From NCBI RefSeq assembly GCF_964355755.1, contig NC_092674.1, positions 27,888,001 to 27,952,000 on the forward strand: 64,000 nt of DNA. The letters run 5' to 3'. The stretch is from Antedon mediterranea. Taxonomy: Eukaryota; Echinodermata; Crinoidea; Comatulida; Antedonidae. The notes under the pieces were generated by a model. That model saw only the letters and a list, made by a program, of their open reading frames with translations. It was not told the origin of the DNA and made no database searches. Positions 198-35,704 of this stretch are shown in pieces. The position numbers were made by a program, and so were the translations under genes. Within the stretch, counting starts at the first letter, position 1; each line of letters opens with the position of its first letter.

Positions 198-1691
198 ATG
201 ATTACTGTCACGTGTTGATATCTTGATACTTTGATTGGTATACATGATTTCATCAAATTACTTCTGTATTATGATTACTGTCACGTGTTGATATCTTGAT
301 ACTTTGATTGGAATACATGATTTCATCAATTTACTTCTGTTTTATGATTACTGTCACGTGTTGATATCTTGATACTTTGATTGGTATACATGATTTCATC
401 AAATTACTTCTGTATTATGATTACTGTCACGTGTTGATATCTTGATACTTTGATTGGAATACATGATTTCATCAAATTACTTCTGTATTATGATTACTGT
501 CACGTGTTGATATCTTGATACTTTGATTGGAATACATGATTTCATCAATTTACTTCTGTATTATGATTACTGTCACGTGTTGATATCTTGATACTTTGAT
601 TGGTATACATGATTTCATCAAATTACTTCTGTTTTATGATTACTGTCACGTGTTGATATCTTGATACTTTGATTGGTATACATGATTTCATCAAATTACT
701 TCTGTATTATGATTACTGTCACGTGTTGATATCTTGATACTTTGATTGGTATACATAATTTCATCAAATTACTTCTGTTTTATGATTACTGTCACGTGTT
801 GATATCTTGATACTTTGATTGGTATACATGATTTCATCAATTTACTTCTGTATTATGATTACTGTCACGTGTTGATATCTTGATACTTTGATTGCATACA
901 TGATTTCATCAAATTACTTCTGTATTATGATTACTGTCACGTGTTGATGTCTTGATACTTTGATTGGTATACATGATTTCATCAAATTACTTCTGTATTA
1001 TGATTACTGTCACGTGTTGATGTCTTGATACTTTGATTGGTATACATAATTTCATCAAATTACTTCTGTATTGTGATTACTGTCACGTGTTGATATCTTG
1101 ATACTTTGATTGGTATACATGATTTCATCAAATTACTTCTGTATTATTACTGTCACGTGTTGATATCTTGATACTTTGATTGGTATACATGACTTCATCA
1201 AATTACTTCTGTTTTATGATTACTGTCACGTGTTGATATCTTGATACTTTGATTGGTATACATGATTTCATCAAATTACTTCTGTATTATGATTACTGTC
1301 ACGTGTTGATATCTTGATACTTTGATTGGTATACATGATTTCATCAAATTACTTCTGTATTATGATTACTGTCACGTGTTGATATCTTGATACTTTGATT
1401 GGTATACATGATTTCATCAAATTACTTCTGTATTATGATTACTGTCACGTGTTGATATCTTGATACTTTGATTGGTATACATGATTTCATCAATTTACTT
1501 CTGTTTTATGATTACTGTCACGTGTTGATGTCTTGATACTTTGATTGGTATACATGATTTCATCAAATTACTTCTGTATTATATTACTGTCACGTGTTGA
1601 TATCTTGATACTTTGATTGGTATACACGATTTCATCAAATTACTTCTGTATTATGATTACTGTCACGTGTTGATGTCTTGATACTTTGATT
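198..1691. repeat. 73-bp minisatellite array 1 (about 21 units)
   Basis: Tandem 73-bp units begin ATGATTACTGTCACGTG and continue TTGATATCTTGATACTTTG. They differ at a few recurring sites (GATATC or GATGTC, CAAATT or CAATTT, GTATTA or GTTTTA), and some units have small deletions. Each unit holds the palindrome CACGTG, a CTTTGATT word (TCF/LEF-like) and ATTGG (inverted CCAAT). The array lies between the 3' flank of one synthetase copy and the 5' region of gene A. The same repeat precedes genes B and C but not D. A regulatory role is only inferred. Confidence 0.97.
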
Positions 1692-1699
1692 TTTTATTT

Positions 1700-1775
1700 T
1701 TATTTTTTGTGGACATATCAGTACCATATTTGGGCACATCACATTGTTTTGTCAAACTACTTTAAAATGAAGGGA
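1700..1775 (-). mobile_element. MITE family 1, terminal relic beside the array
   Basis: The words CATATCAGTACCATATTTGG and GGGCACATCACA followed by TTTTGTCAAACTACTTT match the inner and right part of the family 1 MITE seen many times in PDS5. The terminal inverted repeat has decayed. The same half-element follows arrays 2 and 3, so the minisatellite sits against a truncated MITE in each duplicated unit. Confidence 0.6.
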
Positions 1776-2024
1776 TTAACCTACCGGATTTACTGAACCT
1801 AAAAGAGGGTTGGACTTTTTATTAATCTGTACGAATGAAAAGGCAGTCATTTTCCTATCGTTACCTTCGCGCTCTATTAAAAAATTGATTGTTCAGCCTG
1901 ACAATGCTTAGTTTGTATGTGAACGTAGGGGTTTAAAGTTCATTTTTAAGTTAACATTCATTTTGTATAAGACTGTGTTTGCTTATGCCTACTGCTGCTT
2001 TTTAAAGTTCGTTAGTTGTCTAGA

Positions 2025-5000
2025 ATGGCGTTGTCGCGAAATAAAAGCTACGTCCATGCCCCAAATCTGAAGCCATTTATTGGGCTGACGATGCACGAAA
2101 TGTTGGAAGAGAGAGTGAAGAAAAATCCGGACAGAGAAATGCTTGTTTTTGTCGGTGATAATGAACGAGTTACATTTGCTGAATTCAAGACAAGAGTGAG
2201 TATGAAAATATTAACACGGTAATTGGCTACACGAAGGCCTCTGTTACGTACGGCGTCATACAGTATAGGCCTAATACATGTTTTTCTTTAAAGATATATT
2301 GTCCCCTTGGAACATGAAAAATGAAGATTAATAAAATCAGATATTGAATCGGCCATTATGTAGTTCGGGTTTTTCCGTAGAAAAACCCGAAATCAAATGT
2401 TAAAACAGTTAAATTCACCAAATATATACCCATTGGCTGGAAGCCAATTTTTGCTTTAAAAAAAGAGTGTATTTACCTGGGGAAAAAATAGTCAAATTGG
2501 CTTCCAGCCAATGAGTAAGCCAATGGGGTTTTTAGTTGAATTAACCATTTATTTTGTTTATTTTTATGAAAACATTAACTGGTTTTATATTTTTTACTAC
2601 GGAAGTAATTAATTTAACTACAAAATAAACTATTAAAAATCAAATTTAAATAATCTTTATTTTGTCTTTTTTTTTTGTCAAAATAAATATCATATTCAAC
2701 AATAAAAAAGACAACGCGAGGAACCAGTGCTCTTCGGCTTTTAAATGTATTGTATTAGATACTTTTCTATGCTATATATTTTGTTTTAAGACGTCTCTAT
2801 TATTTTATTGAAAGAAAGAGGTATACAGTATTTCCTTTCTTCTTTTTTTTTTTCAGGTAATAGACTTAGCAGCCGGGTTCTTACTCAAACTTGGTCTTCG
2901 TCGTGGTGATCGTATAGCTGTTATAGGAGCTAACCACGTAGAATTGCCCCTTATAACGGCTGCAGCGAGAGCAATAGGCGTCGGTGTGGTAGGTGCTATG
3001 TATATCAAACAAAAGTTGAGCTTTAATGTTCAGTGTAAAAGAATTCTACCTATTTTAAAATGTTTTACTCGTAATAATGCTAACGTAGCAACATTAACTT
3101 TTTTTCAGGCTAACCTGCTTCTTGGACATACTCCTCAAACATTTAAGAACATAATATCACGGGTATGTTATATATCATATTCTATTATTATATTGAATTA
3201 ATAAACGTCTTATTAGAATTAAGAGGAATTCCCAGACTATCGCACCTTATGTTTCTTAGGCTGAATGTTGGTCAACCCCACCATTCTCCGTAAACTGCCT
3301 GGAATAATTTTTCGAACACATTATTCACAGGTGTCGTGCAAAGCGCTGTTCATAACTCGTAGCCCGGACACACTTTACCCAATATTTTGTGAAATGATTC
3401 CAGAGTTAAGTGAAAGTATTCCAGGTGACCTAAATTCAAAACAGTGAGTATTGCAACAATTTGAATACTATAATTTGCTTAGATGCATTCATGCATACGT
3501 AGGCCATCCTAACATGACTAATGTTTCCTCATTCCTCTCATTCATTCATTACCTAACAATTTACTGTTTATTATATTCGTTTCTGTAGGTTCCCCGATTT
3601 AAAGAAGGTCGTAGGCGCTGGTTCGAACTGTAAAAGGTAAGAACATATAATTGTCCAACACAACGACTTGATACTGTTGTTTTTGCTAGGAACCCCGGAA
3701 AACCCAGATAATTTGTGTGTTGTTTTTTTTTTCTTGTTTTTTTTTTTGGGCATACTGTTTTTCTTTCTTTTCAGTGGAACGTTGAATTTCGATGACATAT
3801 CTACTTCTGGATGTGAGGAAGAAGTAGCAACAGCGGCCAAGAAAGTGACAATTGATGACATTAGCCATTTTCATATGACATCGGTAAAAAATATTACATT
3901 GATTCCTATAAGTAGGCTTATAAGTTACCGGATAAGTAGGATTACTGTTGTTGTGACAATTCAAAATAGTCATGTTCAGCTGTTTTTGTATTATAGTTTA
4001 TAGACTTAGTCGTATTTTTATGTCATGGTAACATAATAGGCTGTTATGGCAATCCACGATCCAGGCCAGTATAATATGTTTTTAATTTTATTCCGCAGGG
4101 CTCAACTGGAACCCCGAAATTGGTACCTTATACTCATTTTACAATACTGAATAATTACACCCTTCCACCAAATCAATTTGACGAAGAACAAGTGAGCAAT
4201 GTTTAAAACTTGGTTCCCACTAGGCCTACAACGTAACGAAGGACATAAGCGTAATATATTGTTGTAACTGTCGCTTGTATTTCTCTTACGTCCTAGTGGG
4301 AACAAAGCTTTAGCTTTATACCTATACCGTAACTATATAATGTGGATGCATGTGACGAATTACATTCTCCTAAATACTCGGATGACAGCTGATGATGATG
4401 ATAACGCAGCTCAATGACGTACGTGCAACGCAAGTGACTTGACCAATCCCAAGACAATTGCGTTGTGATTGGTAAAATTGATAACGTAATTAATTATTAT
4501 TATTTATTTAATATTAATAATATATGTTGTACTAAAGATCAATAAATTAGCATGCATTGGTAACATGGCATACGCTGTAGGAATGCTAATGGGTCAAGTA
4601 CAGCCACTCCTATACGGTACAACTTCAGTGTTTCCTTCACCAACCTACACATTTGAAAAGTTTCTTCAGGCTGTCGAAGCAGAGAGGTAAATAGTTCACA
4701 ATTTCACCTATATGCGGAATTCAACGATTTTAAAATTTGAAATTCCCACAGTAATATAATCGTACGATAATGATGAAGTTAAAGTGACGTATTTTTGTGA
4801 CACATTTATACTGGAATTTCTTTTTTAGATGTACCTTTGTCAATGTTATGATTGACGGTGTAGTTGATCTTTTGTATAATCCTATCTGTGGCAAGTACGA
4901 CCTGTCTTCGTTGAAATCAGGTAACGTATTAAAATGGTAGGGCTATATTATAGTTAGGCCTGTACAAGTATTATCGATAAGAGAGACTTTCATAGTAATT

Positions 5001-7317
5001 TCTAAGTATCAGAAACGACGAAACATTGTTTTCTTTTTAATACAAGGTATGACTGGTGGCTCGCCCATTCCATCAGTTGTTTTTTTCGAATTGAACAAAA
5101 AGCTTGGAATTCGTTTGTTGGTAAGCAAGGAAATTGTTGATTGTTTGATAAATATTTCGGCACATACGGCGTTTCATAATGTACAATATCAAAACGTCTA
5201 TAGTCAGTAAAAACTATCAACGTAAAAAAGAAACTTATAAAGTCTACAAACACTACAGAACAACAACCATCTGCGCATGCTTACAAAAGATTTGACGTTG
5301 TGATAGTTTCTGATTTTGTTTTCTCTTGTACCAGAATTTGTACGGGTCTACAGAAACCCTCTGTATCAGCTCTTTGACAGTCGATGACAGTCCAGATGTT
5401 TGGAGTACATCTGGCCGTCCTTTACCAAATATTGAAGTAAGTTCAACTTTATGAACTTGTTACTTGTTTCATCCCATTCCTTTATAGTTCTGTAATGTAG
5501 ACCTACACAAACAATTATTTCAAATCCCTTTCTAAAGATTCAAATAGTTAATAAAGAAGGACGTTCCGTAGATGTCGGAGAAAAGGGAGAGATATGGGTA
5601 CGAAGTCCGACTGCGTTCAGAGGTTACTGTGGTGATATTGAGAAAACAAAACAGACGATCACTGAAAACGAATGGATTAAAATGGGGTACTATCACAACA
5701 ATGATATTATTTTAAATTGGTGAATAATTTGCCAAGTCAGGTAACATTTAACCACATTTGTTTAAATGGAAGTAAATGTATTAATGTACCACCATTTATT
5801 TTCCAGAGATGTGGGTAAGGTAAATGCGGATGGCTACCTGACAATTGTTGGTCGAATTAAGGTAATTGAATTATACATATTTAACATTACAGTAATTTCA
5901 AACACTGTCGAATACCACAAAAAAACCTCCAGAAGCCCGGCAGCACTCTTTCCAACTTTTGAGTCTAGTCGAATTTAATTAACACCATTGAAATAACTAT
6001 ATTTTCAGAACATAATTATCAGAAGAGGTGTAAATGTCTATCCATCAGAAGTGGAAAGTATAGTAACAACTCATCCAGCCGTAAACATTGCGCAGGTAGT
6101 TGTATTAAATAATGTGGAAAATATTTTAAAGACAGAAGTTAACACTTGATATCATATTTCTTCTAATCTCTCCAGGTTTTTGGAATCCCGGATTACAGAG
6201 TCGGTGAAGATGTGTGTGTATGTGTTACGTAAGTATCATTTTCTTTCAGGCAACCTAAAATGTATGTATACAATTCAAAGATGGTTGCTTTTTTTAATTC
6301 AACAAAACATATATTTTCAAAATAAAATTAATAAAACGGTACTGTTGTGTAATAAATTCTTTCATTAAAAGGAAAAAACATTTTTAATTTCAGATTAAAT
6401 GAAGGTTACGATGTCACTGAAGAAGAACTGAAAACCTTCTTTGTAGGAAAGGTATTAGACAACAAAATGTTGTTATGAGTTAGGATAATAAAAATAAACT
6501 GCAATAAATGCATGCTTGTGATTGAATATTTATAAACATTAGTAGCAAGCTAATTTTTAAATGAATATCTCTTCTTTGTGGCTCTCACCAAGCAGGCTAA
6601 TATTTTCTATATGAGACTAATTGCCAATTAGGACAAAATAAAGTTGACTGGCTGTCAACGAGAATGCTCTTTTTTGGAAGCGGTAGGGGCGTTGTGCGCG
6701 GGGCAGTAACAAATGGTGGCATGTATTATCATCAACCGGGGCAATTACTTAAATCATTATGAATTAGTAGGTGGCTTGCGATAGTCAGTTCTACTCTATT
6801 TAATGACAGTTGCAGAATCACTAATTTATTTCTTGAAACTGCAATTTCCCCCTTTTTTTTCAGATTTCGGATGACATCCAGCCGTCTTACTTTCTTATTT
6901 TTGACTCGTTTCAATCTGGTGCTTCGGGAAAGGTACTTTGTTTTTGTATTTTCATTGCTATAAAAAATATTACGGCTAAACAATAATGTGTTTTTTTACT
7001 CTTTTATCTCTCAATTCATGAAACATAATTATTGCAGTACAAAAGTGCAGTAACTGTAGTAGAAGCTGTCGTTATGGTCTCTAAAGTGTAGAACGTATAC
7101 AAAAGGACTAACTCTAGTAATACTCCTTTCCACATACAAAACTTTTTTTTAATGCATCGAGGAAGTCAGATTGTCTATAGATGATGGCTAGATGGTTATT
7201 AAAATCATGTTCGCAATTTCGTAATTATCGTTACAGGTGGATCGTACGAAGCTACAAGAGATGGCTATTAGTAGAATTGAATTACCGGAAACTCCTTATG
7301 CTGAATTGTACAACTAA
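2025..7317 (+). CDS. ACSF2-like acyl-CoA synthetase, gene A
   Basis: The protein should activate a carboxylic acid, probably a medium-chain fatty acid, to its CoA thioester through an acyl-adenylate. Coding exons: 2025-2195, 2857-2988, 3109-3162, 3331-3443, 3589-3636, 3775-3883, 4099-4191, 4538-4686, 4829-4920, 5047-5120, 5335-5436, 5538-5686, 5807-5861, 6009-6095, 6176-6228, 6394-6451, 6864-6932, 7237-7317. They join without a stop into 562 residues. ANL motifs are the ATP loop TSGSTGTPK (residues 208-216), YGSTE (348-352), MGDVGKVNADGY (from 428), GRIKNIIIRRG (from 444) and SGK (534-536, presumed catalytic Lys536). The SYVHxxxxKPFIGLT start and overall order match ACSF2. The first ATG lies only eight residues before that block, so no mitochondrial presequence is visible. 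Oddities: HVELPL where the other copies have HVEWPL, and Asn for Asp after GRIK. The array at 198-1691 lies upstream. Intron phases are identical in all paralogues. Confidence 0.9.
2288..2700. mobile_element. MITE family 2 copy in intron 1 of gene A
   Basis: The left end TTTAAAGATATATTGTCCCC matches the terminal repeat of the family 2 elements in PDS5 introns (46,493; 51,410; 52,596). The interior contains a hairpin in which ATTGGCTGGAAGCCAATTT near 2,433 pairs with its complement near 2,495. The right end has decayed. Related, more eroded blocks lie in intron 1 of genes B (about 10,180-10,515) and C (about 17,890-18,225), so the insertion predates the duplications. Confidence 0.65.
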
Positions 7318-9103: not shown

Positions 9104-12100
9104 ATGGCCTTGTCGCAAAATAAGAGCTACGTCCATGCCCCCAGTCTGAAGCCATTTATTGGGCTGACGATGCACGAGATGCTGGAAGAGAGAGTGAAGA
9201 AAAATCCGGACAGAGAAATGTTTATTTTTCTCAGCGACAATGAACGAGTTACATTTGCTGAATTTAAGAAAAGGGTGAGTATGACTGTTTAACATACTGT
9301 AAATATGTTAGTTAACATGGTAATTGACTATACGTAGGCCTCTGTTGTACGGTGACGTAGTCGTACCAAAAAGGATGCGTTATTGAAAGCATTTGAACAA
9401 GTAGTAACATTATGTTAGATCTTGTGTATCCGACCGAGCCAACTCCTTGGTCAGAAAATTTAGTATGTGTTCTATCAATGTAAAATGTGTTTTATTTAGG
9501 ACATATTGTGTAAACATGAATTGTGCTACATTATATGGTGCAACTATAATCAGGGTACCTTGCGATCTCTTCAGATATACTCCAATAATTGACAATGATT
9601 GCAATTTTTATTCTGTTTTATATAAATTCTATGTTACTGGGTTGTTAAATGTTTATCCTTGTTAATGTTATTTTGCCACCAGCACTATCAGGAGAGTCTT
9701 TTATAGCGATATTTTTTGCTTTTTGACAATCCGCCAGGATAGTGTTCTGCGCTTTTTCTCTGCTTGTTGTTGTTCTATGTAATATATGCTTTTTGTATTG
9801 TTTTTGTATTATTTTTCTGGATAATAAATGAATATGAATATGAATAATGGTTTAAGAATGTTGCTACAAAGGCCTCGACATTGCCATGTTTACGGAATGT
9901 AGAATTCCTTCTATTTTATGAATTGTTTAGAAAATCAAAATATGACCTGATGGGTAGACTAAATGCAAGCGAAAATGTTTTAGTCTCAACGATTATAAAA
10001 AATGTCTTAGTTAAGTCGAAGATGCTCTCCATGTGGAATGTCATCCTGAGATGAGTAGTAGTAATTAGTCTTGTTTATTTTATTTCATTTATATGTATTT
10101 TTTGTTTTACTTTCTATGGACCAGAGATTCCAAAATAAAAGATTGAATGAATTATAGTAGGCATACATGTTTTTCTTAATTAAAATATATATTGTCATGA
10201 AACATGAAAAAGATTAAAATCAGATATTGAATCGGCCATTATGTAGTTAATCACTTCCGAAGAAACAAAACCCGAAAAACAATTAAAACAGTTAAATTCA
10301 ACAAAATAAGCTACATACTGGAAGCTGGAAGCCAATTTGACTATTGTTTGCTTTAAATAAGAATGTATTTTCCTGGGAAATTAAATTAACCGTTTATTTT
10401 GTCATTTTATAAGTGAAACATCATTTTTTTTTTATACGGAAGTGATTAACTTAAAACTACAAAATAATAATATTGATTAAAAGTCTGATTTAATTAATCT
10501 TTATTTGTCATGTTTTGGAGAGATAACATATTTAAATTACAGTTGTGGATTAGTTGGATTAGACACTAATACTATATGTTGTTTTAAGACGTCTGTCTTA
10601 TTTTGTCTTTTTTTTCAGGTAGTAGACTTAGCAGCCGGGTTTCTACTCAAGCTTGGTCTTCGTCGTGGTGATCGTATAGCTGTTATAGGTGCTAACCACG
10701 TAGAATGGCCCCTTATAACGGCTGCAGCGAGAGCAATAGGTGTCGGTGTGGTAGGTGCCAGGTGCCATGTCATACCAAACTAAAGTTAACCTTACTGTGT
10801 AAAGTAATTATGCCCATTTTGAAATGTTTACTCGTAACAATGCTAACGTAGCAACATTAACTTGTTTCAGGCTAACCTGCTTCTTGGACATACTCCTCAA
10901 ACATTTATGAACATAATATCACGGGTATGTTATGTTGAATTAATGCACTTCGTATTATATAGAATTAAGAGGAATTCAAAGGCTCTCGCACCCTATGTTT
11001 TTTAGGTTGAGTACTGCTTTGATGTTGGTCAACCCCCATCCCTTCGTAAATTGCCAATAATGTTCCAACATGTTATTCACAGGTTTCGTGCAAAGCGTTG
11101 TTCATAACTCGTAGCCCAGACACACTTTACTCAATGGCTTGTGAAATGATTCCAGAGTTAAGTGAAAGTATTCCAGGTGACCTGAATTCAAAACAGTGAG
11201 TAATGCGACAATTTAAATATCTATTAAACGTAGGCTAGCTAGCTTTACCTTACTTACAGCAGGGAGTTAACAACTCCCTGCTTACAGTAAGTATTGGACA
11301 ATTCAAATAGTTTGTTTAGATGCATTCATGCATACGTAGGCTATCCTAACATGGCTAGTGTTTCCGAATCCTTCTCGTTCAATTATTCATGACCTAACAA
11401 TTTACTGTTTATTATAATCGTTTCTGTAGGTTCCCCGATTTAAAGAAGGTCGTAGGCGCTGGTTCAAACTGTAAAAGGTAAGAACATATAATTGTACAAC
11501 ACAACGACTTAATACTGGTGTGTTTGCTAGGAACCAACCTCGTGAAAATCCAGATGTTTTTTGGTTTATTTTTTTGTTTTCTTTTTTGTTTGTTTTTCTT
11601 TTACATACTGTATTTATATCTTTCTTTTCAGTGGAACGTTGAATTTCGATGACATATCTATTTCTGGATGTGAGAAAGAAGTAGCAGAAGCGGCCAAGAA
11701 AGTGACAATTGATGACATTAGCCATTTTAATATGACATCGGTAAAAAATATTACAGTAATTCCTATAAGTAGGCCTATAAGTTACCGGATAAGTAGGATT
11801 ACTATAATGTTGTGTAATGTCCAGCTGTTGTTGTATTAGAGTTTATAGACCTAGATGTTATGTATCTTAACATAGTGGTACTTTTTATTTCATGGTAACA
11901 TAATAGGCTGTCATGCCAATCCACGATCCAGGCCAGTATAATATGTTTTTAATCTTATTCCGCAGGGCTCAACTGGAACCCCGAAATTGGTACCTTATAC
12001 TCACTTTACAATACTGAATTCTTACACCTTTCCACCAAATCAATTTGACGAAGAACAAGTGAGCAATAATTAAAACTTGGTTCCAACTAGGCCTACAACG

Positions 12101-16818: not shown

Positions 16819-19800
16819 ATGGCCTTGTCGCAAAATAAGAGCTACGTCCATGCCCCCAGTCTGAAGCCATTTATTGGGCTGACGATGCACGAGATGCTGG
16901 AAGAGAGAGTGAAGAAAAATCCGGACAGAGAAATGTTTATTTTTCTCAGCGACAATGAACGAGTTACATTTGCTGAATTTAAGAAAAGGGTGAGTATGAC
17001 TTTTTAACATACTGTAAATATGTTAGTTAACATGGTAATTGACTATACGTAGGCCTCTGTTGTACGGTGACGTAGTCATACCAAAAAGGATGCGTTATTG
17101 AAAGCATTTGAACAAGTAGTAACATTATGTTAGATCTTGTGTATCCGACCGAGCCAACTCCTTGGTCAGAAAATTTAGTATGTGTTCTATCAATGTAAAA
17201 TGTGTTTTATTTAAGACATATTGTGTAAACATGAATTGTGCTACATTATATGGTGCAACTATAATCAGGGTACCTTGCGATCTCTTCAGATATACTCCAA
17301 TAATTGACAATGATTGCAATTTTTATTCTGTTTTATATAAATTCTATGTTACTGGGTTGTTAAATGTTTATCCTTGTTAATGTTATTTTGCCACCAGCAC
17401 TATCAGGAGAGTCTTTTATAGCGATATTTTTTGCTTTTTGACAATCCGCCAGGATAGTGTTCTGCGCTTTTTCTCTGCTTGTTGTTGTTCTATGTAATAT
17501 ATGCTTTTTGTATTGTTTTTGTATTATTTTTCTGGATAATAAATGAATATGAATATGAATAATGGTTTAAGAATGTTGCTACAAAGGCCTCGACATTGCC
17601 ATGTTTACGGAATGTAGAATTCCTTCTATTTTATGAATTGTTTAGAAAATCAAAATATGACCTGATGGGTAGACTAAATGCAAGCGAAAATGTTTTAGTC
17701 TCAACGATTATAAAAAATGTCTTAGTTAAGTTGAAGATGCTCTCCATGTGGAATGTCATCCTGAGATGAGTAGTAGTAATTAGTCTTGTTTATTTTATTT
17801 CATTTATATGTAATTTTTGTTTTACTTTCTATGGACCAGAGATTCCAAAATAAAAGATTGAATGAATTATAGTAGGCATACATGTTTTTCTTAAAATATA
17901 TATTGTCATGAAACATGAAAAAGATTAAAATCAGATATTGAATCGGCCATTATGTAGTTAATCACTTCCGAAGAAACAAAACCCGAAAAACAATTGTTAA
18001 AACAGTTAAATTCAACAAAATAGGCTACATACTGGAAGCTGGAAGCCAATTTGACTATTGTTTGCTTTAAATAAGAATGTATTTTCCTGGGAAATTAAAT
18101 TAACCGTTTATTTTGTCATTTTATAAGTGAAACATCATTTTTTTTTTATACGGAAGTGATTAACTTAAAACTACAAAATAATAATATTGATTAAAAGTCT
18201 GATTTAATTAATCTTTATTTGTCATGTTTTGGAGAGATAACATATTTAAATTACAGTTGTGGATTAGTTGGATTAGACACTAATACTATATGTTGTTGTG
18301 GATTATGTATTGGATTAGACACTAATACTATATGTTGTTTTAAGACGTCTGTCTTATTTTGTGGAAAGAAATTTTGCTTTTTTCTTTTTTTTTTCAGGTA
18401 GTAGACTTAGCAGCCGGGTTTCTACTCAAGCTTGGTCTTCGTCGTGGTGATCGTATAGCTGTTATAGGTGCTAACCACGTAGAATGGCCCCTTATAACGG
18501 CTGCAGCGAGAGCAATAGGTGTCGGTGTGGTAGGTGCCAAGTGCCATGTCATACCAAACTAAAGTTAACCTTACTGTGTAAAGTAATTATGCCCATTTTG
18601 AAATGTTTACTCGTAACAATGCTAACGTAGCAACATTAACTTGTTTCAGGCTAACCTGCTTCTTGGACATACTCCTCAAACATTTATGAACATAATATCA
18701 CGGGTATGTTATGTTGAATTAATGCACTTCGTATTATATAGTATTAAGAGGAATTCAAAGGCTCTCGCACCCTATGTTTCTTTAGGTTGAGTACTGTTTT
18801 GATGTTGGTCAACTCCCACCCCTTCATAAATTGCCAATAATGTTCCAACATGTTATTCACAGGTTTCGTGCAAAGCGTTGTTCATAACTCGTAGCCCGGA
18901 CACACTTTACTCAATGGCTTGTGAAATGATTCCAGAGTTAAGTGAAAGTATTCCAGGTGACCTGAATTCAAAACAGTGAGTAATGCGACAATTTAAATAA
19001 TTACTATACGTAGGCTAGCTAGCTTTACCTTACTTACAGTAAGTATTGGACAATTCAAATAGTTTGTTTAGATGCATTCATGCATATGTAGGCTATCCTA
19101 ACATGGCTAATGTTTCCAAATCCTTCTCTTTAAATTATTCATGACCTAAAAATTTACTGTTTATTATAATCGTAGTTTCCCTGATTTAAAGAAGGTCGTA
19201 GGCGCTGGTTCAAACTGTAAAAGGTAAGAACATATAATTGTACAACACAAAAACTTATTAGATGTGTTTGCTAGGAACCCCGGGCAAAAACTGATGTTTT
19301 CTTTTTGGTTCTTGTTACATACTGTATTTGAATCTTTCTTTTCAGTGGAATGTTGAATTTCGATGAAATATCTATTTCTGGATGTGAGGAAGAAGTAGCA
19401 AAAGTGGCCAAGAAAGTGACAATTGATGACATTAGCCATTTTAATATGACATCGGTAAAACATATTACATTTATTCCTATAGATGTTATATATCTTAACA
19501 TAGTTGTACTTTTTATGTCATGGTAATATAATAGGCTGTTATGGCATCTAGGTGCGTATAATATGTTTTTAATCTTATTCCGCAGGGCTCAACTGGAACC
19601 CCGAAATTGGCACCTTATACTCACTTTACAATGCTGAATTCTTACACCTTTCCACCAAATCATTTTGACGAAGAACAAGTGAGCAATGTTTAAAACTTGG
19701 TTCCCACTAGGCCTACAACGTAACGAATGACATAATCGCAACGCAAGTAATTTTACCAATCACAAGTAATATATTGTTGTAACTGTCGCTTGTATTTCTC

Positions 19801-23541: not shown

Positions 23542-24630
23542 TGCCTACCTCATTAAATCAAGCCTATCTTGTTGCATGCTATTTTTAGGATAATGGTATT
23601 TATATAATATATATAAAGTTGAATGGTTTTGATCGATCTTTAGGCAGCACAAATAACCAGGGAAGAGTTCCCTGGAATAACGTCACCAAATGAAGAAACC
23701 ATATGCGTCTTCCACGTTAATGTATTAATCATTTAAGGAACAACTAGGCCAGGCATTTACAATATCAATAAAACCATTACAATATCGCAGCCTGTCATAT
23801 TAAAAACCAAATTATTGCACCGCCCACACGGTAAAATACATTAATTAATAGTATATAGATTAAAGTAACGTTTAGCTTCAGTAGTTTTCCGGGAATATAT
23901 AGTTCAAATATATCAATTGAACATTTTACTAATAATATAAGTCTTTAGATTTTTATGAAATTATAAATAATGGTTCCATAACATAGTATAACATAGTATT
24001 GCTGTTTTTGCTTGAAAATAGATCAATTAGACTGCGCAAACGTTTTACACATGTGTATGTGTTGACAACGATCTACAATATTAAAAAAATATTAATATTA
24101 ATAAAATAATTATATAATGATTCGAAACTTTCTATAAGGGACATTGTTTAGAACGTGTGTGTGTTTTATTGACAGCTCTGCAGCGTTTGCGGGTTGGATT
24201 ATTGTTTGATGATAATGATAATAAAAAGTTAACAATAATTGTGTAACTTCACTCTTACCACACACCTATCAATATAAACCCAATAGTACCGTACTGAAGC
24301 AAAAGTGAAATGAACTTAGCATTTGTATTTTGTATAACTACTATGTGTCATTAAATATATCTTTTTTTTCTTTTCTTTTTTTCTCTCTGGGTTAGGGTTA
24401 GGGTTAGTTCAAGTTTTTTACTTCTAATCATGACCCCAATTATGGCATTCCTTTCTCTTATTATTTATTCTTTTTACTGTTTTTTATTCATGTATTATTT
24501 GTCTTAGCATTATTGAATAAATGTTATTATTGAATATTATATATGTTAGCATGTGTCAGAAGCTATTTTGACTCAATTGTTGATAACCGTATTTTAGATC
24601 CTTTTTTTTTCTTTTTGAAACACGTGTTCG
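23542..24630. other. Spacer between gene C and the relic cluster
   Basis: About 1.1 kb without a recognisable gene. It contains a 17-bp palindromic micro-insert (23,658-23,674), AT-rich runs, a pyrimidine run near 24,362-24,388 and three GGGTTA units at 24,389-24,406. No minisatellite array lies here, unlike the spacers before A, B and C. Confidence 0.5.
23658..23674. mobile_element. 17-bp palindromic micro-insert
   Basis: CAGGGAA, GAG, TTCCCTG is a perfect 7-bp-arm palindrome. It is flanked by AAATAAC on the left and GAATAAC on the right, which match in six of seven bases. The layout is the same as at 11,260 and 24,786. Confidence 0.6.
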
Positions 24631-24740: not shown

Positions 24741-24785
24741 CACACAGATGGATAACGATAGCAAAATCGGCCCCTTGGCTTTCAC

Positions 24786-24818
24786 CAGGGAGTTGTTATT
24801 AGCTAATACAACTCCCTG
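24786..24818. mobile_element. 33-bp palindromic micro-insert with 7-bp target repeat
   Basis: The ends are CAGGGAGTTGT and ACAACTCCCTG around an ATTAGCTAAT-type centre, a near-perfect palindrome. Both flanks read CTTTCAC (24,779-24,785 and 24,819-24,825), an exact 7-bp direct repeat. Confidence 0.8.
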
Positions 24819-25074
24819 CTTTCACATTTCTACTTATGATCGGATGTAAAATTGTTTATTGGTCATATCCTGTCGATATCGTGAATTTCTAAATTTTTTA
24901 AAAAGCTTTAAGATTTATGATTTCTGGGTTATAGGCCTATACTTCCTGGTAAAATACTGGACTCATGGTTATTAAATTAACATGTTTTTTTTATGGTGAT
25001 AGGTTATATATAAAAAGTGCTTTGCTTCTTTTCACTCTCATTGTACAAATCGTCAGATTAGTAAAAAGTTAAGA

Positions 25075-27173: not shown

Positions 27174-28220
27174 CACTTTGACTGCCAGAGGTTTTTCCAG
27201 TTAGAAACTGCCACCGCCAGCGTTTTTAGCCCAATTCGATGTTTTTATTAAAGCTGATTGAAACCATGTATGTGATCTGATTTATATGTAATTTAGACTA
27301 AAATAATTATAAAGATTTTAGCTTTACAATGGTACCAAGAACGATTTTTAAATCGCAATATGTAAATCGTAATAGTAAAATGAAAGTAACCCACTTTTTG
27401 AATTTTTCGTAGTTTCGCGCAAGAAAGTCGAGATAGAGATAATCGCGATTTTGTGCAAGACATCACAATATGAAAATATCGCCCGGTGAGATCAACAAAC
27501 AACGAAAAAGTTACTTACACGGCACCGATAGGCCTATAAAAACAAGTTATCACTATCGAAAAATGTATTACATTTTATAAATCATAAATCTTACATCAAT
27601 GTTTCGCCAAAATCCACATAGTAAAGACACCAGGCCTAAAGTTGGTCCGGAACCGTTTTACGACTAGGGCTAGGCTATAGCCTAGTACTACTAGCCTAGG
27701 CCTAAGAGATAATAAACTGATGATAATAACCATACCATTTCAAAACAAGTTTGTTGCGTGAAACTCGGTCACTTTCAGTAAAACACCAAAACAATTAGGG
27801 TATACATACAATAATAAAATTAAAGACTTCATATTGAAAATGACTCCATTATTTTTTATTCAGATAACAAACAAACATGTCAATCCACAAAAACCTTTGT
27901 AATGCTTCGGCGGCGGCATAGCTAGCGCGCGACCGATACACAATGCGCCAAGCCATCGCTCTACGAGCTACTGTGATGCGCGGTGTTTGTTATTTCGACA
28001 GGTACCATTTTGACAGTCGTTCGTAACCAGATTAGTTACTTTCAAATTGTAAAATATTAACGGTCCAGACCGAATATAGTGTTCATATTTTTAGTATATA
28101 CCAATAATTAACCTATCTACCAGATTTCGTAAAAAAACGCGAAAAACGAAGATCTTCGTTTTTGGCAGTCAAGCGTTGTGTTTCCAAAAACGAAGATCTT
28201 CGTGTTTGGCAGTCAAAGTG
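27174..28220. mobile_element. Non-autonomous DNA transposon, about 1 kb
   Basis: The left end CACTTTGACTGCCAGAG and right end TTTGGCAGTCAAAGTG are inverted repeats of about 14 bp. The right end also carries two copies of a subterminal block with the palindrome CGAAGATCTTCG. The interior has no convincing transposase. The terminal word resembles piggyBac-type ends, but I do not see the expected TTAA flanks (TTTAG left, TTTCA right), so the superfamily is left open. Confidence 0.6.
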
Positions 28221-30340: not shown

Positions 30341-33300
30341 GGTATAGGTCATACTTAGATATCTGAAAGACTTATTTTTCTATTCTTCAGGTAATAGACT
30401 TAGCAGCCGGGTTCCTCCTCAAACTTGGTCTTCGTCGTGGTGATCGTATAGCTGTTATAGGCGCTAACCACGTAGAATGGCCACTTATAACGAGTGCAGC
30501 GAGAGCAATAGGCGTATGTGTGGTAGGTACCAATCTAATTTTATTTATTATTATTATTATTCTATTCAAACTAATTCTAAGCTGATTTTTCTAAACATTT
30601 TACAATGTAAGTGCATAGGTCTTTTTCTGACATATTTTAACCTTTTCAATACACAGGTAAATAATAGTAAATACTGACATTGTTTTATTTTTTTTCTCAG
30701 ACTTATCTGCTGATTGGTAATACTCCTCAAGCATTTCAGAAAATACTGTTACAGGTATGCCATATGCAAATTAAACATAAATACTAACTTAATATTCTTA
30801 TAATGTCTGTTCAATCCACCCTCTCTCCTCCCTCTCTCTCCTCCTCTCTCTCGCCCCTACCCACCCCCTTCCTCTCTCTCTCTCTTTCTCTCGCTGTATT
30901 CATGTGATCCATACTATTATATAAACAATGTAAAAATTATTATACAGGTTTCGTGCAAAGCGTTGTTCATAACTCGTAGCCCGGACACACTTTACTCAAT
31001 GGCTTGTGAAATGATTCCAGAGTTAAGTGAAAGTATTCCAGGTGACCTGAATTCAAAACAGTGAGTAATGCGACAATTTGAATAATTACTATACGTAGGC
31101 TAGCTAGCTTTACCTTACCTATACTTTTCATTTCCTTAGGTTACCAAAATTAAAGAAGGTCATAGCCACAGGTTCTAATTTCAAAAGGTAAGCAAATTGC
31201 CTGAAGTAAATACATTTCTAAAGCTACGCCAAGTACGGCAAAAGGAACTGTCGACTGATTGTGAAGTAATTAATTTATTTTTTTCAGTGGAACGTTGAAC
31301 TTTGCCGACATATCTATTTCTGGATGTGAGGAAGAAGTAGCAAAAGCGGCGAAGAAAGTGACAATTGATGACGTCAGTCATATTGTTATGACATCGGTAT
31401 GAAATGTATTTCAATAAAGTCAGTATTATTAGTACGGGATAGCCTATATCACACTCAAAGCTAGGACGAGACGCTACAAAGACGTACGCGCAATGTACGT
31501 AGGTTTTCCCAAATCACAAATGGCGAGTACCGTTCTATATACTTAACACAATCTAGCCGTCTTATGATTTTTTATTCCGTAGGGCACAACTGGATTACCA
31601 AAAACGGTACCGTATACTCAATTCATGGCACTCAATTGTAACACGTTTGTACCGGATCAATTTGACGAGAAACAAGTAGGTAACAATTTCCATTTGCCAG
31701 TAACTATAAGGTAGTGACAGATGTATTTATGATGATAATTCTAAAATCTATGAATACGATGACGAAAGTACAATGGTGGTGATGATGATGATGACGAACA
31801 GCACGAAGATGATGACGAAAAGTAAGAAAATGATGACGATCAGTACGAAGAAGATGACGAAAAGTAAGAAGATGATGACGAACAGTAGGAAGATGATGTA
31901 GAAAAGTAAGAAGATGATGACGAAAAAGTACGAAGATGATGATGAAAAATACGAAGATGATGACATAAAATACGAAGATGAGGAAAATTACGTATATATT
32001 ATAATAAGTACACTTATTTAGTATTTTATTTAGATTTATTTTATTGTTTTGTAAAGATCAATAAGTTTGCATGTATTGGTAACATGGCATATGTTGTATC
32101 AATACAAAACGGTGAGGTAGCGCCACTCGTATTCGGTACAACTTCAGTTTTTCCTTCACCAACCATAAATTTTGACAAGTTTCTTCAGGCAGTCGAAGCC
32201 GAGAGGTAAGGTTAATTGTTAACAATAATTCCACTGTCCAACATTTTTAAATGTATGCATGGTGATGTTCGTCAGAATGATGTCTATCAAGAGATCTAGA
32301 GAAACTAAACAATTCTCATTAAAACCCACGTTAATGAATAATGCATTTTTTTTTTATGTGAACACATAAACATAACTGAACCTAATAATTAAAGTAAGAA
32401 TAATAGAAGATATCGATGGGATTCGAACCCAGGACCTTATTTCCTGGTAATTTATGCCATATAAGTAATCACAATCATGATTTCTGCCTCAGATGGCCAG
32501 TAACAAATTCGCGGACTGTCTGACCAGGGAAGAGTAAAATTTCACTCCTCCCTGGTGGATGACGGTCCAGATATCTGGAGTATGTCTCATGTCAACCAAA
32601 TGTTGAAGTAAGGTCAGGTTATTTGTATCTTTACATTCTTTGTTTCTTTATTTATTTCTGTTTCTTGAAAAAAAAGAGTTAAATTTCACTCTTCCCAGTT
32701 CTGACTTATCTAACATTCTTGTGTAGATGTCGCGCTTTCACGTTGATGATCAGTGGTGTGGTCAATCTTGCGTATAACCCAATTTGTGATAAGTACGACC
32801 TGTCTTCATTGAAATTAGGTACGGGGTATAAAGTATTGTTATTGTTATAATGGTATTAGGTAGGTAGGCCTACACTGTAAAAAATATTATCTAGCCGCCT
32901 ATTATTTTAACACTCGTTCTGTTTTCTTTTAATTGTTACAAAAAAGGTATAACCGGTGGTTCACCCATTCCGCCAGCTATCTTTTTGGAGTTGAAAAACA
33001 AGCGAGGAATTCGTTTGTTGGTAAGTATAGACCTTAAAATATTTCCTATAGGTGATCGTTGTTGCAGCTCTCAATGTATAGCAGCACACTGTGAAAAAAA
33101 TAATATTTGAGCATACAAGAAACATTTGTGGCACATGCAAGGGAAACCAGACATAAGTCGGAATATTTAAAATTGAGATTTCCACAAATACTGAAACTAC
33201 ATAATATTAGATTTAAAATGCTGAAAAAATATCTTGATACCATATCTACTTCCAGAAATATCTAAGTCTAAAGTAATTTTTCAGCCTTTTATTGTTTTTG

Positions 33301-35704
33301 GCTGTTTCTACAAATCTAAACATGTGACTTATGTCCGATTTCGCTTGCATGTGCCACATTTTTTGTTGTGATAGCTAATCTACTAAATATAAATTGTTTT
33401 CCAGAATGCTTATGGGTCAACAGAAGCCTACACAATGACCTCTTTGACAGTCGATGACTGTCCAGAAGTTTGGGGTATGTCAGGGCGCCCTTTACCGAAT
33501 GTTGAAGTAAGGTTAACGTTAATTGTATCTTTACATTCTTTGTTTCTTTATTTCTGTTTCTTTCTTTCTTTCCTCTTTCTTTCTTTCCTCTTTCTTTCTT
33601 TCCTCTTTCTTTCCTTCCTCTTTCTTTCTGTTTTGTTCTATTGCTTAATCTTTTTATCTTTCAGTTTTTTCTTTCTTTTTCTTTTGTTTCGTTTCTTTCT
33701 CTGCTTCTTTTTTTTCAGTTTCTTATTTTTTTGCTTCTTTCTTTCAGTTACTTTTTTCAGATTCTTTCTTTCTTTCTCTTCTCTTTGTTTCTTTCTTTCA
33801 TTCCTTCTATTTCTTTCGTTCTCTTTTTGTTTCTTTCTTCCTTTCTCTTTCTTTCTGCTTCTTTCTTTCTTATTCTTTCATTTCGTGTCTTTCTGCTTCT
33901 TTTTTCTGCTTCTTTCTTTGTGTTTCTTTCTTTTTGCCTCTTTCAGTTACTTTTTTAACAGTTCTTTCTTTTTGATTCTTTCTTTCTGCTTCTTTCTTTC
34001 TTTCTTTCTCTTTCTTTTTGTTGTTTCTTTATGTCATTCTGCCTTCCTGTATTACAAAATCCTAAATTTTTCAGCTACAAATAGTTGATGAAGAAGGTTG
34101 TCCCGTAGAAGTCGGAGAAAAGGGAGAGGTTTGGGTACGAAGTCCGGTTGTGTTCAAAGGGTACTATGATAATATTGAGAAAACACAGCAGACGATTACT
34201 GAAAACGGATGGATAAAAATGGGGTACAGTACTATCACAACTTTATGTTTGCTCAACATACATGAATTATACCCAGTCAAAGTGTACGGTATGCATTTAA
34301 CATCGTTTAAGTATAAATGAAAGTAAATGTATTAATGTATCACTAATATCTTCTTTTAGAGATGTGGGTAAGGTCAATGAAGATGGCTATCTTACAATTG
34401 TCGGTCGAATTAAGGTAATTGAATTCACAAAACATTTTGTTACACGGTAAATATTTGTAAAATCGTGTTTTCATATGTTAATTAAGATAAATGAATCGCA
34501 ATTAATGTTCTGAAATTATTTTATTTTCAGGACATAATTATCCGAGGCGGAGACAATGTTCATCCATCAGAGGTGGAAAATAAAATAATAACACATCCCG
34601 CCGTAAAAAGTGCGCAGGTAGGCCTAAGTGTTTTTTTTTTCTCTATCGGCCTATTCATTAATTTGTTCTCACATAAACAGTTGCTGAATAAACCAAAAAA
34701 AACATTTTATAAAAAAAAAGCACTGAAATAGCAAAAACTAACATACGTGGTGTACCGCAAACTTATATCAATATCAGCACGTATGTTGTTCTTCTAATCT
34801 CTCCAGGTTGTAGGAATCCCGGATTACAGGATCGGTGAAGATGTTTGTGTATGTGTTACGTAAGTATTTTTTAAAAATTGAACTTGTTGCTATTTATTTA
34901 ATTTACTTCAAACCAATAATTATAGTCTGAATTAAGACGAAAAATACCACAGTTATAAAATAAAATATTTATAATTTCAGATTAAATGAAGGTTACGATG
35001 TCACCGAAGAAGAACTGAAAACGTTCTTAGCAGGAAAGGTATCCTATAGATATTATTTTGATTTTAATATTATAATCACCATGGAGAGATTATAATTCCT
35101 CCATGGTATCACAACATTCTGTTGATTCTGTTTTTAAATACTCACCCGTTAACGTCGTGTATCTTTCTGGTAACGTCGTGTATCACGCGGCAGCGTCGTG
35201 ACACCCGGTAAAATCGTATCGCCGTATTGAGAAACAATCGAAATGTTTTTTTTTTAGGTTAGGCTACAGTTCTTCAATTTTACGAATTTTTTTTTCAGAT
35301 ATCCGATTTAATCCAGCCGACTTACTTTCTGATTTTTGACTCGTTTCAATATAGTGCTACAGGGAAGGTAATAGGACGTGCCATATTTTATATGGCTGCC
35401 GTCTAATTAGGCCCTATGTTATTGATAATCGATAAAGTAGTATCCGATGGTTGATTAAAACTATTACTTGTTCAAACAAATCATTATATGGAGATACCTC
35501 TACCATATTTGGTTATGAGTTTCCAAATGTATTTCAAATATGTTTCGACCAATCGCAGTAATCCACATAAAAATATTGTCTAGGCCTAATGTTTTAGCAT
35601 ATTATCAAATTTCAATTAATATTTATTTACAGGTGGATCGTAAGAAGCTGCGTGAGATGGCTATTGGTAGAATTGAATTACCAGACACTCCTTATGATTG
35701 TTGA
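29577..35704 (+). CDS. ACSF2-like acyl-CoA synthetase, gene D
   Basis: The most diverged complete paralogue, 559 residues. Exons: 29577-29747, 30391-30522, 30701-30754, 30948-31060, 31140-31187, 31288-31396, 31583-31675, 32057-32205, 32727-32818, 32947-33020, 33405-33506, 34075-34223, 34360-34414, 34531-34617, 34807-34859, 34981-35038, 35299-35367, 35633-35704. Its motifs are closest to the family consensus: TSGTTGLPK, NAYGSTE, GDVGKVNEDGY, GRIKDIIIRGGDN, and ATGK at the C-terminal lysine. It ends TPYDC, so there is no peroxisomal SKL tail. AATAAA is at 35,734. No minisatellite precedes it. Its introns have gathered private repeats: a long hairpin in intron 1, a GA-rich repeat in intron 7, a SINE and an exon 11 fragment in intron 8, and a CTTT tract in intron 11. 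It is probably the founder-like member, and the pseudogene at 25,448 is its nearest relative. Confidence 0.92.
29952..30002. repeat. (AT)n microsatellite
   Basis: An uninterrupted TA run in intron 1 of gene D, on the left side of the long hairpin. A second run lies at about 30,308-30,339 on the other side. Confidence 0.95.
30005..30267. repeat. Long near-perfect inverted repeat (hairpin)
   Basis: Two arms of about 125-130 bases pair almost without mismatch around a 6-base loop (stem GTCTC 30,134-30,138 and GAGAC 30,145-30,149). The arms differ mainly in a T27 versus A14 homopolymer. The outer ends are CACTGTAAATTATAGAAAC and its complement. It lies between two AT runs inside intron 1 of gene D, so the transcript could form a long duplex. 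It is either a foldback-type mobile element or a recent inverted duplication. Confidence 0.93.
31745..31985. repeat. GA/GAT-rich compound minisatellite
   Basis: Repeated GATGATGACGAAAAGTA-like units of about 21 bases in intron 7 of gene D. A Ser/Tyr/Phe/Ile-rich frame on the opposite strand is a by-product of this repeat. Confidence 0.9.
32400..32510 (-). mobile_element. tRNA-like SINE fragment
   Basis: On the - strand GGGTTCGAATCCCATCG (32,415-32,431) is a textbook B box with its pairing arm. It lies in intron 8 of gene D. The A-box side is weak and no intact tRNA fold is claimed. Confidence 0.5.
32557..32660 (+). pseudogene. Duplicated exon 11 fragment inside intron 8 of gene D
   Basis: GGATGACGGTCCAGATATCTG, then ATGTTGAAGTAAGG and TGTATCTTTACATTCTTTG, repeats the 3' part of exon 11 and the first bases of intron 11 (33,450-33,555). 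It has decayed and lacks the first half of the exon. It lies about 850 bases upstream of the true exon 11. Confidence 0.75.
33536..34020. repeat. CTTT-rich polypyrimidine tract
   Basis: Nearly 500 bases of imperfect TTTCTTTC repeat fill intron 11 of gene D and end shortly before the exon 12 acceptor. The tract creates long Phe/Leu/Ser frames on the + strand that are not genes. Confidence 0.95.
35080..35105. mobile_element. Possible older 26-bp palindromic micro-insert
   Basis: CATGGAG...CTCCATG around a TTATAA-containing centre, flanked by TAATCAC and GTATCAC (five of seven bases equal). It resembles the CAGGGAG...CTCCCTG inserts but is less exact. It lies in intron 16 of gene D. Confidence 0.35.

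Follow-up and report, generated by a model that had tools for sequence, protein, structure and literature searches.

Micro-palindromes flanked by 7-bp duplications in the Antedon mediterranea genome: very probable excision footprints of P-superfamily transposons

Palindromes and target duplications in the window

In Antedon mediterranea, one intron of a gene that has been duplicated in tandem contains a 21-bp palindrome lodged between two copies of the same heptamer, and structures of similar design recur elsewhere in the window, the stretch of 64,000 nucleotides that was analysed. The question raised by this locus is how sequences of such a size come to lie within a duplicated target. The original prediction considered three sources: extreme internal deletion of a hAT-like element, products of excision and reinsertion, and mobile palindromes of a new class. 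The data presented here indicate that the micro-palindromes are very probably excision footprints of P-superfamily DNA transposons.

The sites in the window are collected in Table 1. The palindrome at 11260 and the two CTTACAG copies that enclose it are as originally described, the flanks matching at 7/7 positions. Each CAGGGAGTTGTT-type end contributes 9-12 nt to it, with a short overlap at the join. The description also held for the sites at 24786 and 23658. The palindrome at 24786 is almost two full overhangs joined, and the two best window sites have the related end CAGGGAGTTGTTATTAG, for which no parent element was found. The original prediction was tentative about the site at 35080, and only part of it stood: the duplication is poor, while the ends resemble those of another P family, a relative of which has its intact parent in L033. 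This site is probably an old footprint from a relative of the CATGGAGGTATAAAAATA family. The pattern CAGGGA-N0-30-TCCCTG has 4 matches within the window against 0.03 expected. When the ends are relaxed to 6 nt of any family, the window contains 5 pairs; 100 shuffles averaged 0.82 pairs and never exceeded 3. Taken by themselves, the weak candidates at 32525 and 35080 therefore count for little.

Table 1. Coordinates of the putative excision footprints, their flanking duplications and the empty site in the window
Feature	Position	Strand	Remarks
Left target-site duplication CTTACAG	11253..11259	.	7 bp
Footprint CAGGGAGTTAACAACTCCCTG	11260..11280	.	Intron of a tandemly duplicated gene
Right target-site duplication CTTACAG	11281..11287	.	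7 bp
Empty site, single CTTACAG	19033..19039	.	Equivalent position in the paralogue (90.7% identity)
Left duplication AAATAAC	23651..23657	.	6/7 match
Footprint CAGGGAAGAGTTCCCTG, CAGGGAAGAG family	23658..23674	.	
Right duplication GAATAAC	23675..23681	.	6/7 against AAATAAC
Left duplication CTTTCAC	24779..24785	.	Perfect 7 bp
Footprint CAGGGAGTTGTTATTAG (17 nt) + CTAATACAACTCCCTG (16 nt)	24786..24818	.	
Right duplication CTTTCAC	24819..24825	.	Perfect 7 bp
Candidate footprint CAGGGAAGAGTAAAATTTCACTCCTCCCTG	32525..32554	.	No recognisable duplication; uncertain
Old footprint candidate CATGGAGAGATTATAATTCCTCCATG	35080..35105	.	Flanks TAATCAC / GTATCAC, 5/7

Insertion with target duplication, for which a paralogue had been invoked as the empty site, is supported by the copy at 18679-19279, which has one CTTACAG and lacks the palindrome. 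In the outgroup comparison for polarity the intron segment was absent from the paralogues at 3280, 26420 and 30930, and only the 19033 copy is therefore informative. In two paralogues (26618 and 31121) the intron homology to the 11-kb copy stops a few bases from the later footprint target, and a different and shorter intron tail lies beyond the break. Two other structures in the window were noted. A 36-bp inverted repeat, CGTTTTTGG..CCAAAAACG, at 28157-28192 has the 8-bp palindrome AAGATCTT at both flanks; it is a small element-like structure with a duplication length that differs from that of the footprints. At 24392-24408 there is a short interstitial telomere-like run, GGGTTAGGGTTAGGGTTAG.

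Genome-wide families, duplication length and junctions

Counts were made in the 354-Mb assembly that contains the window, with the reversed pattern as control. The pattern CAGGGAGTT-N0-30-AACTCCCTG, which also takes in the CAGGGAGTTGTTATTAG type, has 783 matches in the whole genome and its reversed control 0. The corresponding figures are 797 and 0 for CATGGAGGT-N0-30-ACCTCCATG, built on the end of L033, and 74 and 0 for CTGAGACAA-N0-30-TTGTCTCAG, built on the end of L029. The CAGGGAAGAG family has 554 forward and 576 reverse matches genome-wide, its reversed control again giving 0. Chance palindromes are ruled out by the shuffles and the reversed controls.

The flanks were read at 65 unique sites, 54 from the CAGGGAGTT family and 11 from the CATGGAGGT family, mostly on contigs C1-C3. 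An exact 7-bp repeat flanks 46 of the 65, whereas at the same offset exact 6-bp and exact 8-bp matches occur once each, showing that the duplication is 7 bp. Together with the 783 matches against none in the reversed control, this bears out the genome-wide excess of flanked palindromes that the original prediction had anticipated. The repeat is perfect in 10 of the 11 sampled CATGGAGGT footprints. Flank identity is below 6/7 in about one fifth of the sampled sites, which is attributed to age, nested changes or trimming of the ends. The target approaches the consensus GTTWAAC; with both orientations counted, 83% of cases have T at position 2, and the same share have A at position 6.

Two samples of 50 footprints contained 33 and 34 distinct sequences, respectively. 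Most copies are thus differing junctions and not one amplified sequence, consistent with the original view that these are not ordinary MITEs. The features of end joining are all present: microhomology (overlaps of 0-5 nt), filler (1 to more than 6 nt) and asymmetry. The last is illustrated by the one-sided footprint ATCATAC-CAGGGAGTTGTAAAAT-ATCATAC (L069), and L097 is also one-sided. Some footprints have been copied after their formation. The commonest CTGAG 32-mer has identical flanks in 4/4 copies read (L121-L124), indicating that a larger dispersed repeat carried the footprint as a passenger, and L008 and L010 likewise have common flanks.

Probable parent elements and the length of retained ends

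The P-type domain PF21787, used as a query, identified 35 places in the genome. Among these, L029-L031 are three near-identical (99%) 5.55-kb elements with 47-bp inverted repeats that start CTGAGACAACAATCAAAGAG, flanked on both sides by CGGACAC, GCTAGCT and GTTTATA, respectively. The element in L033 spans 357-6680, with CATGGAGGTATAAAAATAGAAGGAGAGAGC at both ends and GATACCG at both flanks. The four intact elements, each with 7-bp flanks, show that P elements duplicate 7 bp in this genome. The proteins of L029 and L033 both contain PF21787, and that of L029 also contains PF21788; these domains are the RNase H N-terminal domain and the GTP-binding insertion of P transposase, respectively. Both proteins match 6p5a, the solved structure of the Drosophila P transposase, with E values of 1.5e-14 and 6.3e-5.

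The ends of these elements recur in the micro-palindromes. The footprint ends equal the P-element terminal repeat for CATGGAGGTATAAAAATA (L033) and for CTGAGACAACAATCAAA, the terminal repeat of L029-L031. The start of the L033 end CATGGAGGTATAAAAATAGAAGGAGAGAGC is exactly that of the family of 797 footprints, the number of micro-palindromes (control, 0) that match the complete P element whose ends begin CATGGAGGTATAAAAATAGAAGGAG. Micro-palindromes of this design are thus linked, through the end patterns of L029 and L033, to elements coding for P transposase. The CAGGGAGTT footprint ends match P-element ends only through the similarity of the full ends. The true ends of this family, CAGGGAGTTGTAAAATAARAGGAGAG, have the continuation AGGAGAG in common with the L033 end, which argues that the CAGGGAGTT family is a close relative; the identity of its lost autonomous parent is inferred. 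No complete CAGGGAGTT-ended element with a transposase was found in the genome; five full CAGGGAGTTGTAAAATAARAGGAGAG ends were identified by end match, at C2:13917819+, C3:10074733-, C6:3686413-, C6:29834397- and C7:15044963-. Two sampled single ends (L086 and L106) are real element ends, CAGGGAGTTGTAAAATAARAGGAGAGAG. The exact longer ends CAGGGAGTTGTAAAATAAATAA occur at three sites only, all of them footprints with filler. A candidate parent end in L063 lies inside an intron of a TACO1-like gene, with no partner end seen.

The length of parental sequence that is kept was measured in 69 CAGGGAGTTGTAAAATA ends (at least 17 nt), picked blind to the downstream sequence. Retention was 17 nt in 18 ends, 18 nt in 20, 19 nt in 20 and 20 nt in 9, such that 67 of the 69 stop matching the parent by nucleotide 20. 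None stops at 21-27, and the two that retain 28 nt or more are real element ends. Position 18 matches in 74% of the ends; in our reading, positions 19 and 20 match at about the rate set by base composition, A and G both being counted at position 19. A spacer of 31-61 instead of 0-30 gave 29 matches compared with 783, and nine of the 29 are another repeat, CAGGGAGTTCCCTGGTCTG. According to PMC7776569, the cut made by P transposase on the other strand lies 17 nt within the element, which leaves a 17-nt tail on each chromosome end, and the ends retained here fit 17-18 nt. The CAGGGAAGAG family seems to keep somewhat more than the other families, up to ~21 nt per end.

Identical 42-bp CAGGGAAGAGTTAAATTACAATTGTAATTTAACTCTTCCCTG palindromes, from a family that seemingly keeps up to ~21 nt per end and so more than the others, are paired ~2.9 kb apart at C1:2878763/2881679 and C1:11811027/11813953. 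A 72-75 bp repeat, CAGGGAGTTCCCTGGTCTGTGCAGGAACATC...TAACTCCCTG, is found at C1:21379699 and in at least eight other places, near-unchanged except that the length of its A-run varies; it could represent a short element of its own, either mobile or repeated.

Probable origin of the micro-palindromes and what they may record

A route from P element to micro-palindrome can be proposed from these data. A full-size P element bearing, for example, CAGGGAGTTGTAAAATAARAGGAGAG or CATGGAGGTATAAAAATAGAAGGAGA ends would insert and duplicate a 7-bp target close to GTTWAAC. Excision by P transposase would follow, through a cut whose long stagger leaves ~17-18 nt of either element end on the chromosome as 3' single-stranded tails. 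These tails would be trimmed and subsequently joined through 0-5 nt of microhomology or with short filler. The product would read as a tiny palindrome in which the two target copies enclose remnants of both element ends, each at most 18 nt long and the second in reverse. The cut itself and the pathway of its repair are what we infer from the products.

Products of this form have been published for Drosophila melanogaster, where P excision leaves the target, up to 17 nt, a microhomology or insertion, up to 17 nt and the target again (PMC2895639 Table 1). The joins in the fly are made by microhomology, bluntly or with templated insertions, with the involvement of DNA polymerase theta (PMC2895639), and the same pathway may act here. 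The format is the same in the two animals, including one-sided and fully trimmed variants. The Drosophila element differs in its 8-bp duplication and 17-nt tails, compared with 7 bp and ~18 nt here, and its products come from a laboratory assay, whereas each family described here has hundreds of copies fixed in a natural genome. Galileo and other 7-bp elements of Drosophila (PMC3573991) resemble the present elements in their P-superfamily transposase and duplication length. Galileo, however, has long foldback ends in contrast to the short or 47-bp terminal repeats seen here, and a large set of Galileo excision footprints was not found in the literature search. The zebrafish Pdre2/THAP9 system (PMC10983969) is likewise a P-like element of an animal outside the flies, with ends that begin CAT; its 8-bp duplication and its ends differ from those reported here, and no footprint catalogue for Pdre2 was found in the literature consulted. 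The open-access literature, to which the search was confined, yielded no genome-wide catalogue of P footprints.

Three other origins were weighed. A micro-palindrome of 17-44 bp could be mobile itself, as a non-autonomous element moved as such by a transposase, and would then represent the new class envisaged by the original prediction. The hundreds of copies with 7-bp duplications, the empty paralogue site and the frequent recurrence of some identical sequences, for example CTGAGACAACAAATAAATAGTTATTGTCTCAG, could be explained in this way. Such mobility is nevertheless very improbable, as most copies vary in length and junction in the manner of repair products (33-34 distinct per 50), one-sided footprints keep a single end, and 17 bp hardly offers room for two transposase binding sites. 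The identical CTGAG 32-mers were dropped as evidence for mobility once their flanks proved common; among the recurring 32-mers read, no identical copies at unrelated sites were found, since 4/4 share their flanks. Excision was also among the options first offered, and that part of the proposal stands, while the mobile palindrome does not. The footprints resemble MITEs in having short palindromic ends, target duplications and no coding capacity, but MITEs are amplified copies of a single sequence with binding sites and the footprints are one-off junctions of 17-59 bp.

It might also be argued that the palindromes are random internal-deletion derivatives of P elements, produced by aborted gap repair and very short by chance, which would account for the same families and duplications. 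One clear longer case, C4:26093194, is 58 bp and keeps sequence beyond nucleotide 18. Random deletions would be expected to stop anywhere, however, whereas the observed ends break off at ~18-20 nt and the 21-27 range is empty. Long spacers, moreover, are rare: the 783 matches fall to 29, and nine of these belong to the CAGGGAGTTCCCTGGTCTG repeat. We consider there to be only a slight chance that this explanation is correct. The chance is negligible for the CAGGG-ended hAT element (CAGGGAGTTGTAAAATAAGAGGAG ends) suggested originally. The ends of hAT elements commonly begin CAG or CA, which is in its favour, but hAT elements make an 8-bp duplication and their cut leaves footprints with little or no terminal repeat. 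Here the exact 8-bp repeat occurs in 1 of 65 sites and the exact 7-bp repeat in 46 of 65, as much as 18 nt of either end is retained, and the matching parents encode P transposase. A hAT origin is therefore rejected on duplication length and transposase type.

If the micro-palindromes are P excision footprints, scars greatly outnumber elements. When up to 2 mismatches are allowed, the genome contains 5 full-length ends of the CAGGGAGTT family and 8 of the CATGGAGGT family, and thus for the two main patterns there are 1,580 exact scars (783 + 797) against 13 full ends; as the scar counts include the CAGGGAGTTGTTATTAG type and repeat-amplified copies, and older parents with more than 2 mismatches are missed, the true ratio of events is lower, yet still large. 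The ratio fits repair that is nearly always by end joining and seldom copies the element back. It also fits a process in which full elements, being harmful, are lost in the ordinary way and small scars reach fixation by drift. It is possible, and we put it forward tentatively, that these are hit-and-run P elements, repaired nearly exclusively by end joining, leaving permanent scars and rarely persisting, such that the genome is a log of the jumps of near-extinct lineages.

Work on excision footprints has usually dealt with small numbers of them in flies, whereas well over a thousand are present in this single genome. As the duplicated target and the flanks of each scar serve to date it, transposition events can be counted after the elements have vanished. 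The scars also allow the cleavage stagger of P transposase to be inferred outside flies, and record the outcomes of germline end joining across evolutionary time. For annotation they carry a warning: they mimic a new micro-MITE class, are copied within other repeats and can seed satellites. In L109 (C3:297700-298600) a footprint and its flank, CAGGGAGTTGTAAAATAAGATTATCTTACAACTCCCTGATTGGCT, now form a tandem array with periods of 45 and 61 bp, a transposon scar seeding a satellite. At C1:2816759-2816843 (L007, 1490-1590) a CAGGGAGTT and a CATGGAGGT footprint are adjacent, with three copies of GTCAAAC between and around them, as if one target had been struck twice by different P families.
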